The position numbers and the translations under genes were made by a program. The notes under the pieces were generated by a model. The model saw only the letters and a program-made list of their open reading frames with translations, had not been told where the DNA came from and ran no database searches. DNA of 64,000 bases. Source: Natronococcus sp. AD-5. GTDB lineage: Archaea; Halobacteriota; Halobacteria; Halobacteriales; Natrialbaceae. Shown here in pieces: positions 11,837 to 30,075 of the stretch. The stretch is taken from positions 682,001 to 746,000 of the forward strand of contig NZ_CP132294.1 of the NCBI RefSeq assembly GCF_030734285.1. The letters are read 5' to 3'. The first letter of the stretch is position 1; every line of letters begins with the position of its first letter.

Positions 11837-12988
11837 CTAGAATCCTTTGCCGAGCATCTCGCGGGCGATGACGTTCTTCTGGATCTCGGTGGTTCCCTCG
11901 TAGATCTGGGTGATCTTGGCGTCGCGGTAGAACCGCTCGACGGGGAAGTCGTTGACGTAACCGGCGCCGCCGTGGACCTGAACGGCCTCGTCGGCGACCT
12001 CGACGGCGACGCGGGAGGCGTACTCCTTGGCCATCGAGGCGAGCTTGGTGATGTCCTCGCCCTGGTCGACCTTCCAGGCGGACTTGTAGGTCAGGTTGCG
12101 CGCGGCTTCGGTGTCCGTGGCCATCTCGGCGAGTTTGTGCTGGATGGCCTGGAACTCCGAGATCGACTGCCCGAACTGTTCGCGGTCCTGGGCGTACTCG
12201 AGGGCGGCGCGGGTGGCTCCCTTCGCGATGCCGACGCCCTGTGCGGCGACCGCGGTCCGGGTTTCGTCGAAGAACTGCATCTGCTGCATGAAGGCGGCGT
12301 CCTCGGTCCCGACGAGGTTCTCCTCGGGGACGCGGACGTCGTCGAAGATGAGCTCCGCGGTGTCGGAGGCGCGAATGCCGAGCTTGCCCGTGATCTTGTC
12401 GGCCTCGAAGCCGTCGCGGTCGGACTCGACGATGATCTGGCTGAAGCCGTTGTAGCGGCCCTCGGCGTCCGGGTTGGTCTTACAGAGCACGACGAAGAAG
12501 TCGCCGATACTGCCGTTGGTGATCCACATCTTGTTGCCGTTGATCACCCACTCGTCGCCGTCCTTCTCGGCCTCCGTCGAGACCGACGAGACGTCGGAGC
12601 CGGTGTCCGGTTCGGAGATCGCCGCGCCGGAGATCTTCTCGCCCATCGCGACGGGCTCTAAGAAGCGCTCCTTCTGATCCTCGGTCCCGAAGTTCATGAT
12701 CGCCTCGCAGCCGAAGGAGGTCGAGACGATCGAGAGGGCGATGCCGGGATCGTAGGAGAACAGCTCCTCCGTGATGATCGCGGTGTCGAGGATCGAGTAG
12801 CCGGCGCCGCCGTAGTCCATCGGGATGTAGGCGCCGGTCAGGCCCATCTCCGCGGCCTTGTCGATGATCTCGTGGGGGTACTTCTCTTCCTCGTCGTACT
12901 CCTGGGCGACGGGGACGATTTCGTTCTCCGCGAACCGAGTGATCTCGTCGCGGATCTGCTGTTGTTCTTCGGTGAGACCGAATTCCAT
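11837..12988 (-). CDS. Acyl-CoA dehydrogenase
   Basis: FAD enzyme for the first step of beta-oxidation, converting acyl-CoA to trans-2-enoyl-CoA and passing electrons to ETF. It has 383 residues, the normal length. Typical segments are SEPDTGSDVSS (FAD/substrate contact), WITNGS, DREQFGQSISEFQAIQHKLA, VQVHGGAGY and the catalytic-loop region QIYEGTTEIQKN, whose Glu is the usual base. It is divergent from the HBD-ECH fusion gene across a 115-bp shared promoter region, so the two catalyse consecutive steps and are probably co-regulated. Chain-length preference cannot be read from the sequence. Confidence 0.93.
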   Translation of the reverse strand: MEFGLTEEQQQIRDEITRFAENEIVPVAQEYDEEEKYPHEIIDKAAEMGLTGAYIPMDYGGAGYSILDTAIITEELFSYDPGIALSIVSTSFGCEAIMNFGTEDQKERFLEPVAMGEKISGAAISEPDTGSDVSSVSTEAEKDGDEWVINGNKMWITNGSIGDFFVVLCKTNPDAEGRYNGFSQIIVESDRDGFEADKITGKLGIRASDTAELIFDDVRVPEENLVGTEDAAFMQQMQFFDETRTAVAAQGVGIAKGATRAALEYAQDREQFGQSISEFQAIQHKLAEMATDTEAARNLTYKSAWKVDQGEDITKLASMAKEYASRVAVEVADEAVQVHGGAGYVNDFPVERFYRDAKITQIYEGTTEIQKNVIAREMLGKGF

Positions 12989-16008: not shown

Positions 16009-17307
16009 TCACGGTGCCTGTCCGTAGATCAGGTTGCGCTGAATCTCGTTTGCACCCTCGTAGATGACGGGGATTCGCGCATCCCGGTAGACGCGGGCGA
16101 TCCGGCGCTCGTCGAGGATCGATCGGCCGCCGTGGAACTGCATCCCCCGCTCCGAGACGTCGACGGCCGCCTCCGTCGCCGCCGTCTTGGCTAGCGCAGC
16201 CCAGTATCCGGCGTTCTCCCGCCGTTCGACCTTTTCGCACGCGCGCCAGGTGAGCGTTCGCGCGCTTTCGAAGCCGATGAGCATGTCCGCGAGACCGTGC
16301 TGGACCGCCTGGAACTCGCTGATCGTCCGGCCGAACTCCTCGCGGTCGTGAGTGAACTCCCAGGCTTCCTCGATGGCGGCGGCGGCGAGACCGAGGCCGT
16401 GACCCGCGACGATCACGCGGCCGCGGTTGAAGAAGTCCGCGAGCATCGTGAACCCGGCTCCCTCGTAGCCGATCAGGTTCGATTCCGGGATGCGGCAGTC
16501 GTCGAACGTGATGTGGGCCTGCTTGGAGGCGCGCATCGCCATCTTTTCGGGAATGTGCTCGGCCTCGTACCCCTCGGTATCGGTCGGGACGATGAACATC
16601 GAGTGATTGCCGTAGCGGTCGTCCTCGTCGTCGCCAGTTCGCGCGTACACCGTGATCCAGTCGGCCTCGACGCCGTTGCCGATCCAGTACTTCTCGCCGT
16701 TGATGACGTACTCGTCTCCCTCCTTCTCCGCGGCTGCGCCGTCTTCTCGCGGGCGGGGGGACGGCTTCGCCGTCCCGTTCGAGGCGGCTTCGCCGCCTCG
16801 CAGCCCGCTCGAACGGTCCGCGGAACTCCGTTCCGCGCTACTCCGTTCCGAGGCACTTTGCGCCTCGCTCTTCTCGGCCCGGGTTCGCATTCCCGCGAGA
16901 TCGCTCCCCGTCTCGGGTTCCGAGACCGCGAGGCCGGAAATCTGGTCTCCTTCCGCCACCGGGCGAACGTACCGCTCGCACTGCTCGTCGGAGCCGTACT
17001 CGTAGGTGATCTCGCAGCCGAAGCTCGCGAGCTGCAGCGTCAGCGCGATTCCGGCGTCGGCCCGGTAGAACTCCTCGGCGAGCGCGAGCAGCTGCGGGAG
17101 ATCCAGCCCCCGGCCGCCCCACTCCTCCGGAATGTCCTGGGCGACGAGGTTCGCCTCCTGGCCCGCCTCGAGAACGTCGTGGGGATACTCGCCCGATTGA
17201 AAGTACTCCTGGGCGTTGGGTTCGATCCGTTCGCGAGCGAACTCGCGAGCCTCGGCCTTGACGTCGCGTGCGTGCTCCGGAACGATGCTGTCGTCCAGCA
17301 GATCCAT
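16009..17307 (-). CDS. Acyl-CoA dehydrogenase with 49-residue in-frame insertion
   Basis: Second acyl-CoA dehydrogenase of the window, 432 residues against about 380 for the family. Normal segments are SEPETGSDLAGMRTRAEK, WIGNG, DREEFGRTISEFQAVQHGLA, MQFHGGRSI and VIYEGANEIQRNL. Residues 147-195 are extra: a Ser/Arg/Glu/Ala-rich stretch encoded by tandem short hairpins (16723-16869), flanked by near-perfect copies of a 9-bp direct repeat. The insertion falls in the surface loop before the middle beta domain (VINGEKYWIG), so the fold may tolerate it. All catalytic segments remain, so the enzyme may still work. Confidence 0.88.
   Translation of the reverse strand: MDLLDDSIVPEHARDVKAEAREFARERIEPNAQEYFQSGEYPHDVLEAGQEANLVAQDIPEEWGGRGLDLPQLLALAEEFYRADAGIALTLQLASFGCEITYEYGSDEQCERYVRPVAEGDQISGLAVSEPETGSDLAGMRTRAEKSEAQSASERSSAERSSADRSSGLRGGEAASNGTAKPSPRPREDGAAAEKEGDEYVINGEKYWIGNGVEADWITVYARTGDDEDDRYGNHSMFIVPTDTEGYEAEHIPEKMAMRASKQAHITFDDCRIPESNLIGYEGAGFTMLADFFNRGRVIVAGHGLGLAAAAIEEAWEFTHDREEFGRTISEFQAVQHGLADMLIGFESARTLTWRACEKVERRENAGYWAALAKTAATEAAVDVSERGMQFHGGRSILDERRIARVYRDARIPVIYEGANEIQRNLIYGQAP
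16723..16869. repeat. 147-bp in-frame palindromic insertion inside acyl-CoA dehydrogenase
   Basis: The block holds four hairpins: 16758-16776 (GGGACGGC stem, TTC loop), 16780-16800 (CGAGGCGGC stem, TTC loop), 16820-16836 (GCGGAAC stem, TCC loop) and 16849-16867 (CGAGGC stem, 7-base loop). It is flanked by CTTCTCCGC (16723-16731) and CTTCTCGGC (16870-16878), an 8-of-9 direct repeat like a target duplication. Its length is a multiple of three and it contains no stop in the gene frame. It encodes residues 147-195, which the related dehydrogenase at 11837 lacks. Confidence 0.75.
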
Positions 17308-28450: not shown

Positions 28451-30075
28451 TATTCGGCCTCCGTCTCCGCGTCCTCCCGCTCGCGTAGTTTGAACTTCTG
28501 AACCTTCCCCGTCGTCGTTCGGGGCAGCTCCTCGACGAACTCGACCTCGCGGGGGTGTTTGTACTCCGCGAGGTTCGTCAGGCAGTACTCCTTGATCTCG
28601 TCGGGCTCGACGTCGGCGTCGGGCGTCGGGACGACGTACGCCTTGACGGTCTCACCCCGGCGCTCGTCTGGGATCCCAGCCACGGCGGCGTCGGCGACGG
28701 CCTCGTGTTCGAAGAGTAATTCCTCGACTTCTCGCGGGTAGACGTTGTAGCCGCCGGTGACGATCATGTGCTTCTCGCGGTCGACGACGTAGAAAAATCC
28801 GTCCTCGTCGTGGTAGCCGAGGTCGCCGGTGTGGAACCAGGGCCGGCCGTCGGCCTCGGTGAACGCCTCCTCGGTCGCCTCCGGGAGCCCGTAGTAGCCC
28901 TTCATCACGTTCGGTCCCGAGACGACTATTTCCCCGGTAATATCGGTGAGATCCGCGTTCTCTTCGTCTATCGGACCCCGCTCGACCGGCGGGACGACCT
29001 CGAAGTCCTCGTCGACGACCCGCGAATCGACGCCGGGAACCGTCTTTCCGATGCTGCCGACGCGTCGCCCCTCGATCGGACCGTTGAAGTGCGTGATCGG
29101 ACTCGTCTCGGTCAGTCCGTACCCCTCGTAGAGTTGGACGTCGTAGAGCTCCTCGAAGCGCCGGAGAACCTCGACGGGGATGCCGGCGCCGCCGACCCCG
29201 CAAAGCCGCAGCGAGGAGAGGTCGAACTCCTCGGCGTTCGGCTGGTTGATAACGTCGTTGTACATCGCCGGGACGCCGTGCATCAGCGTCAGCTCCTGCT
29301 CTTCGATGATCGAGACGGCCTCCTGGGCGTCCCACTGCGGGACCGCGTAGTAGGTGCCGCCGCCGAACAGCGTCGCGTTCATCACGACGGTCATCCCGTA
29401 GATGTGAAACAGCGGCAGCACGCCGAGCTGTTTATCGCCCGGCCGGATCCCGTCGGGAATGAGTTCGTCCGCCATCGAAGTGTTGGACTCGAGATTCCGG
29501 TGGGTCAGCTGTACCCCCTTCGGCTGGCCGGTCGTCCCGCTGGTGTACGGCTGGACCGCGACGTCGTCGTCGTCGCGGTCGACGACGTCGGGCGCGCCGC
29601 GTCCCAGGAATTCCTCGAACGGCGTCGCGCCGTCGGCGCCGCCGCCGACGTCGTGAGACGACGTCTCACTGCCCGGTGAGCTTCGCTCACCGACGCTCAC
29701 GACGTGTTCGACGTCGGTGTCGTCCCGGACCTCCTCGACGAACGGGACGAGATCGGCCAGCGCGACGACGACCTTCGCCTCGCTGTCGGCGAGCAGGTGG
29801 CCGATCTCGCGGGCCTTGTACTGCGGGTTCATCGGGACGACGACCCCGCCGGCTCGCAGCGTCCCGTGGAACGCGATCACGAACGGCGGCACGTTCGGCA
29901 GATAGAGCGCAATCCGGTCGTCCGCGCCGATTCCCCGCTCCTCGAGTGCGGCGGCGAACGCGCCGGTCTGGCCCCAGAACTCCTCGTAGCTCGTCTCCTC
30001 CCCCCGGAACCCGATCGCGGCGTCGTCACCGTGCTCCCGAACGGTCTCCGCGACGTGATTGACAAGGTTTGTCAT
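28450..30075 (-). CDS. Long/medium-chain acyl-CoA ligase (AMP-forming)
   Basis: Acid-CoA ligase of 541 residues from the ANL superfamily: acid plus ATP and CoA gives acyl-CoA. The P-loop YTSGTTGQPKGV is near residue 175, followed by YGLTETSP, WFHTGDLGYHDEDGFF, DREKHMIVTGGYNVYPREVE and the C-terminal catalytic Lys in LPRTTTGKVQKF. It is followed directly by a crotonase gene in the same operon. Around residues 124-143 a Ser/Gly-rich stretch (GERSSPGSETSSHD) is encoded by two hairpins (29648-29705) and looks like an insertion in a surface loop before the P-loop. Substrate chain length unknown. Confidence 0.92.
   Translation of the reverse strand: MTNLVNHVAETVREHGDDAAIGFRGEETSYEEFWGQTGAFAAALEERGIGADDRIALYLPNVPPFVIAFHGTLRAGGVVVPMNPQYKAREIGHLLADSEAKVVVALADLVPFVEEVRDDTDVEHVVSVGERSSPGSETSSHDVGGGADGATPFEEFLGRGAPDVVDRDDDDVAVQPYTSGTTGQPKGVQLTHRNLESNTSMADELIPDGIRPGDKQLGVLPLFHIYGMTVVMNATLFGGGTYYAVPQWDAQEAVSIIEEQELTLMHGVPAMYNDVINQPNAEEFDLSSLRLCGVGGAGIPVEVLRRFEELYDVQLYEGYGLTETSPITHFNGPIEGRRVGSIGKTVPGVDSRVVDEDFEVVPPVERGPIDEENADLTDITGEIVVSGPNVMKGYYGLPEATEEAFTEADGRPWFHTGDLGYHDEDGFFYVVDREKHMIVTGGYNVYPREVEELLFEHEAVADAAVAGIPDERRGETVKAYVVPTPDADVEPDEIKEYCLTNLAEYKHPREVEFVEELPRTTTGKVQKFKLREREDAETEAE
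29648..29705. repeat. Nested palindromes inside the acyl-CoA ligase gene
   Basis: Outer arms ACGTCGTGAG (29648-29657) and CTCACGACGT (29696-29705) are exact inverted copies. Inside are GTGAGAC-GAC-GTCTCAC (29653-29669) and CGGTGAGC-TTC-GCTCACCG (29674-29692). The second has the same stem-TTC-stem design as the block in the dehydrogenase at 16758-16800. It encodes a Ser/Gly-rich loop of the protein. Confidence 0.7.

Follow-up and report, generated by a model that had tools for sequence, protein, structure and literature searches.

An acyl-CoA dehydrogenase gene encoding 432 amino acids is located on the minus strand at positions 16009–17307 of the window (the whole 64,000-nucleotide stretch of DNA that was analyzed), in a Natronococcus genome comprising 2 contigs and 5.17 Mb. 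The orthologs of this gene typically encode 383 amino acids, and its reading frame is extended by a 147-bp block (16723–16869, minus strand), corresponding to 49 codons. The initial annotation regarded this block as a mobile-looking palindromic insertion; its length, a multiple of three, the 49 residues that it encodes (147–195, SEAQ...AAAEK), the lack of an in-frame stop codon, and the absence of an insert from the related enzyme encoded at 11837–12988, a 38% identical paralog, were all borne out by the sequence. The four hairpins reported there were also recovered (16758–16776 and 16780–16800, each with a TTC loop; 16819–16837, TCC; and 16850–16866, TTT), but the list omitted a further hairpin at 16731–16741 and a closing stem formed by 16746–16754 and 16803–16811, such that the gene-strand fold of the block comprises five hairpin loops and one closing stem. 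The folding energy of the block is markedly lower than that of dinucleotide-shuffled sequences (z −5.4 as DNA and z −4.5 as RNA; 0 of 200 shuffles were as good), and a scan of the window for perfect hairpins identified three 8–9-bp stems with 3-base loops inside 80 bp at this position. In an AlphaFold2 prediction based on an alignment of 29 sequences, which is shallow and may lower the confidence of the flanking residues too, the segment containing the block (131–188) is placed between two strands with a pLDDT below 50; most of the dehydrogenase outside this segment exceeds a pLDDT of 80, and the core fold is retained.

To compare orthologs, one genome per species was searched, which returned 76 loci. 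Approximately 70 haloarchaeal orthologs lack the 49-residue block, and in the full-length orthologs, which include those of several Natronococcus species and numerous further Natrialbaceae, the sequence is ...AGM(Q)TRAEK-(D/E)GDEYV... with no insert, representing the clean empty site expected of an insertion. A loop of similar length with unrelated sequence was absent from the orthologs, a few of which have a short, unrelated extra sequence downstream of AEK. The 9-bp direct repeat that had been noticed around the block, with an 8/9 match, is present as CTTCTCCGC (16723–16731) and CTTCTCGGC (16870–16878). The latter, which reads GCCGAGAAG on the gene strand and is the left copy there, is the native target sequence, and at the DNA level either GCCGAGAAG or its near variant GCGGAGAAA is found once at the empty orthologous sites. 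The order on the gene strand is GCCGAGAAG followed by the block, which ends in GCGGAGAAG; because this right-hand copy is in part the conserved 3′-end of the element itself, GCCGCG(G)AG, the repeat is no proof of a target-site duplication. A duplication of the target was considered for this repeat and not accepted; an exact insertion in a tryptophan synthase gene (TrpA, below) occurred without one.

Anatomy of the compound element

The basic unit of the family is approximately 51–60 nt in length and consists of (T)AGC, a 17–21-nt hairpin, a GGA-N4–5 linker of the form GGANNNN(T), a second hairpin, and an (N)AGA end. The second hairpin contains a tandem G·A motif, CGAG-CGG...CCG-CGAG; an interpretation of this motif as a k-turn was rejected, as its G·A pairs are not flanked by the 3-nt bulge. 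Palindromes are present near the termini of the unit, and terminal inverted repeats and a transposase gene are absent from it. The tetranucleotide GTAG is located 5′ of the first hairpin, and the sequence GAGTAGC is found there in most of the aligned copies, although this invariance is inflated because a consensus was used in part to find the copies.

In the dehydrogenase gene, where all features lie on the minus strand, a 99-bp inner mobile unit (16742–16840, TAGC...GAGAAGA) is positioned between ...GGAG and CGGC..., and separates the 5′-half of an outer unit (16841–16869), composed of AGC, hairpin HP0, and GGAACGGAG, from its 3′-half (16723–16741), composed of the CGGCGCAGCCG hairpin HP3 and CGGAGAAG. 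The arrangement at 16841–16869 is found again in a paralogous dehydrogenase (L166), at the homologous position. HP0 (16850–16866) has the sequence GAGGCGC-AAA-GTGCCTC and HP3 (16731–16741) has the sequence CGGC-GCA-GCCG. Within the inner unit, HP1 (16820–16836, GCGGAAC-GGA-GTTCCGC) is the most conserved hairpin of the family, and HP2 is formed by a 5′-arm at 16803–16811 (CGAGCGGGC), which includes the GA of the tandem G·A/A·G motif, and a 3′-arm at 16746–16754 (GCCCGCGAG). The loop of HP2 contains two extra hairpins, A (16780–16800) and B (16758–16776), both of which are common to a copy in a DNA polymerase IV (polIV) gene (L226).

Inspection of the four-hairpin form revealed that taking out TAGC...AGA restores CGAG-CGGC...GCCG-CGAG: the four-hairpin form is one unit inserted in the second hairpin of another. 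The earlier description as a short palindromic element stands, but not as a single block: the insertion is a compound, with a unit nested in a unit, plus the two extra hairpins. The inner units located within genes are 51, 54, 60, or 99 bp in length, each a multiple of three, and one inner unit outside genes is 58 bp. Among the aligned copies, 98.1% of the stem cells are paired, and the covariation score is 0.091, compared with 0.045 in shuffled alignments, none of 500 of which scored as high. The most common double change, from A-U to G-C in HP1 (GAA...AGT to GAG...AGC), is synonymous on both sides; such compensatory and synonymous changes indicate that the pairing and the peptide are both kept.

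Distribution and movement of the unit

Other copies were searched for, as the initial annotation had proposed, and were present both in the same genome and in its relatives. A BLAST search of the host genome with a 74-nt consensus identified five strong copies, in the genes for ValRS, TrpB, CobN, and GatE and in the window gene (host genes were named by NCBIfam), all of which are in-frame insertions whose translations are variants of SSAERSSADSR..PRDDGDEPRE; a shorter copy is present in the PurK gene of this genome. Lower-scoring copies in genes for RecJ nuclease, a helicase, a thiolase, and a peptidase-like protein were detected with a covariance model derived from 31 copies, the E-values of which are rough and the matches of which under approximately 35 bits could arise by chance in GC-rich DNA; such low-scoring matches were left out of the copy-number claims. 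Short perfect hairpins are also clustered at 29568–29698 of the window, where the model matched weakly (27 bits, 29624–29698, minus strand); this is perhaps a decayed copy or chance. Scans with consensus words, performed first, mostly picked up GC-rich background and were not taken further.

Within the family, at least 95 of 125 genomes and at least 28 of 29 genera had a BLAST match (E up to 1e-4), counts that are lower bounds, with seven candidates scored per genome. The covariance model, which is frame-neutral, matched every one of the nine Natronococcus genomes and, across the order, 83 of 117 genomes, and the 10 genomes matched in a sample of 120 from the phylum were all members of the same order. 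Homologous sequence and arrangement extend across dozens of genera, with covariance-model E-values down to 1e-22, and the best-scoring copies are mainly intragenic. A credible match was not found in Rfam, and a search of a phage collection gave no match. In plasmid records of other haloarchaeal genera, the element was identified in MerA, a mismatch-repair gene, and CobN, and plasmid-borne genes may be carriers of the element between genera; the mercury reductase (MerA) genes with the element are on plasmids of three haloarchaeal genera (H2, H4, H5, and H6).

Several further arrangements were observed. The ValRS gene of one congener (G088, L224) contains two separate family inserts, and other congeners have other combinations. 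A multicopy non-coding sequence, GTGCGAGGTCTTCGCGAGTA...GGCTTGGCAGAG...GTTGGGGAGGACGTGGC..., carries hairpin units at different positions in several haloarchaea (L274:900-1200, L248, L286, L267, L262, L285, L296, and L298); the loci tested against Rfam gave no match, and the sequence could represent a family of structured RNAs or an RNA related to IS elements. Several Natronococcus genomes (L218, L210, L228, L220, L227, and L212) contain a near-identical intergenic subfamily, ATCACGGCCAGCATCCGC-GAGTAGCGCGGAACGTTCCGTTCCGCGG..., which is mostly followed by a T-rich tail, GGCGGCTTTTTAGCGTAGATTTTT, and resembles an intergenic regulatory or terminator element.

Evidence that the unit moves comes from comparisons of occupied and empty sites. 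The inner 105 bp of the block (from GAG/TAGC to AAGA/CGG) is identical at 99 of 105 positions (94%), without gaps, to the copy in the DinB/polIV gene of another Natronococcus (G090), and the similarity between the two genes ends at the flanking GAG and CGG. The polIV genes of the host and of most congeners are empty at the site of this copy, and that of N. occultus has a one-unit form. In TrpA, one species (G092) has a one-unit form, ...GATAGTCGAG CGGTGGAACCGCGAG..., and its sister species (G087) has ...GATAGTCGAG (TAGC...60 bp...CAGA) CGGTGGAACCGCGAG... within nearly identical flanks; this pair is an exact 60-bp nested insertion, GTCGAG^CGGTGG, without target duplication. Entry without duplication is thus documented at the nucleotide level by one exact case, with which other nested cases are consistent, the boundaries of primary (non-nested) insertions being ambiguous. 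Full-length, shortened, and empty states of PurK occur within Natronococcus, and a non-coding multicopy repeat reads GCGAGTAACACGAG where other copies hold the unit between GAG(TA) and (TA)ACACGAG. These comparisons show that the unit has moved into unrelated genes and into non-coding DNA.

Ectopic gene conversion or recombination between copies, or horizontal transfer of whole genes, could distribute the element without transposition, and this reading is in line with the ValRS and CobN sites common to different genera, with the MerA copies on plasmids of several genera, and with the compound element at the homologous turn of L166, a dehydrogenase paralog in another genus. The L166 gene is approximately 40% identical to the window gene and is orthologous to an empty gene of the host (L008, 82% identity), and its placement could reflect either a site preference of the element or conversion between the paralogous genes. 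As a general account, however, conversion or transfer is unlikely, given the unrelated host genes that share no flanking homology, as for polIV and the dehydrogenase, the exact nested insertion at CGAG^CGG in TrpA, and the polymorphic empty sites among congeners. We consider it very probable that the block represents a small, non-autonomous haloarchaeal mobile element, present here as a compound copy.

Reading frame and possible mode of mobilization

A total of 65 Natronococcus copies reached 40 bits or more. Codon usage strongly supports coding on both sides of 30 of these copies, every one of which is in the sense orientation. When weaker matches were added and the frame count was completed by reading translations, all 40 strongly coding copies were sense and 39 of the 40 used one linker frame, the exception being L287; the best copies from other families are in the same frame, non-coding ones excepted. 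Coding copies are thus shown to be multiples of three, in sense, and in 39 of 40 cases in one frame, encoding approximately SSAERSSAD(R/S)...PRED(D)G, and their translation products are probably disordered loops at the protein surface. The single frame is not accounted for by stop avoidance, since five of the six frames are open in most copies. In two consensus types, the used frame has a pI of approximately 4.9 and a charge of −1, the other five frames have a pI above 11, and the used frame is the only one of the six that is both stop-free and acidic. Haloarchaeal proteins are acidic, so a selective filter would suffice as an explanation. The many non-coding copies, in which hairpin lengths break the frame, indicate that insertion itself is not limited to genes.

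The uniform frame and the hydrophilic, acidic peptide would also fit a useful module, such as a flexible, salt-adaptive acidic loop under positive selection, with the hairpins as by-products of codon usage. The same hairpins are kept in non-coding copies, however, the stem pairs covary by synonymous substitutions, and orthologs of housekeeping enzymes carry the peptide only patchily, which suggests that it is dispensable; this explanation is improbable. Strong mRNA hairpins could alternatively mark an insert that is removed by the archaeal splicing endonuclease or skipped by ribosomal bypassing, but a length in multiples of three, the lack of stops, and a single frame would be needless in a removed insert, and the coding copies obey all three; we give this explanation very little credence. 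Ordinary low-complexity or simple-repeat expansion in GC-rich DNA, although GC-rich hairpins are frequent in the host genome, is refuted by the cross-genus homology (E to 1e-22) and by the 105-bp stretch that two unrelated genes share at 94% identity.

For the mobile element favored here, the unit sits, in the clearest case, exactly between CGAG and CGG without target duplication, and it also enters its own second hairpin, generating the four-hairpin form; selection would remove other orientations and frames, presumably because only the used frame is both open and acidic. The hairpins and the insertion 3′ of a short target without duplication suggest that the unit works like an IS605-derived PATE or a REP and agree with single-strand transposition of the IS200/IS605 kind, and the single-stranded hairpins may be mobilized in trans by an IS200/IS605-type (Y1, HUH) transposase, a suggestion that we make tentatively. 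The host genome contains a single Y1 gene, which adjoins a tnpB-like gene in an IS605-type element, and the ends of that element look unrelated to the unit when compared by eye. A Y1 transposase was not detected in two of the nine Natronococcus genomes, one of them nearly complete, both of which have many copies. A dedicated single-copy TnpA-REP (RAYT) gene was also considered, and none was found in a search of the host genome.

Relationship to known palindromic elements

The closest parallel in kind is the Rickettsia palindromic element (RPE), as the initial annotation had suggested, and the likeness holds in principle, with in-frame insertions in many unrelated genes and empty orthologous sites. 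RPEs are described as short hairpin-forming repeats inserted in frame in many unrelated genes, each with a conserved peptide, and found also outside genes (PMC10969869, citing Ogata 2000 and 2002); the 2024 review treats mobile protein-coding palindromes as unusual (PMC10969869). The haloarchaeal unit likewise is a hairpin element found in frame in many unrelated genes and in non-coding DNA, but differs in its archaeal host, self-nesting units of 51–60 nt, fixed CGAG^CGG target, practically single frame, and acidic peptide. The unit is not known to be related to RPEs in sequence, and homology is not expected of a GC-rich archaeal element.

Among haloarchaeal elements, the PATEs of Haloquadratum walsbyi are IS605-related, transposase-free, and include 52-bp terminal-only forms, according to the portions of the account used here (PMC3119063). 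Those portions describe palindromes close to the termini, a lack of inverted terminal repeats, and insertion at a short target that is not duplicated, all of which are shared by the unit, and describe no in-frame coding insertions, in which the unit differs (PMC3119063); an IS605 parent of the unit was not found. REP sequences consist of a hairpin preceded by GTAG, and the spread of small hairpins in trans by TnpA-REP (RAYT) has been proposed (PMC8266576, PMC3733652). The unit resembles REP in having GTAG before its first hairpin (GAGTAGC-hairpin), and differs in its two hairpins, its mainly intragenic best-scoring copies, and the lack of a dedicated RAYT in the host genome searched. Coxiella burnetii MITEs and enterobacterial RU elements with intragenic ORFs can extend or enter ORFs, and in the excerpts cited they are bacterial and MITE-like and are not a one-frame, self-nesting hairpin unit (PMC5896051, PMC2759123). 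PARCEL repeats are palindromic coding repeats that are mobile among genomes, and differ in forming amphipathic tandem domains, many of them in membrane proteins, with none reported in archaea (PMC2996958). The view that no haloarchaeal equivalent has been described agrees with our literature search, which found no haloarchaeal case of a mobile coding palindrome in the literature covered, subscription journals being mostly outside it, so that an earlier description is possible.

On balance, we favor the broader interpretation that these are order-wide, self-nesting, coding mobile hairpins, held under a double constraint of pairing and an acidic frame, that have repeatedly inserted peptides into core enzymes by means of an as yet undescribed mobilization system. 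Mobile palindromes that enter genes and leave them intact have previously been essentially a Rickettsia curiosity of unknown mechanism, and the present element represents an independent archaeal case, in an order some members of which can be cultured; its unit ends are defined, a target is apparent, copies are nested, and sites are polymorphic between sister species. How the units move and why one frame is used are thereby directly testable. The element further accounts for odd insertions rich in Ser, Arg, and Asp in haloarchaeal enzymes, which can be a source of confusion in annotation and alignment.
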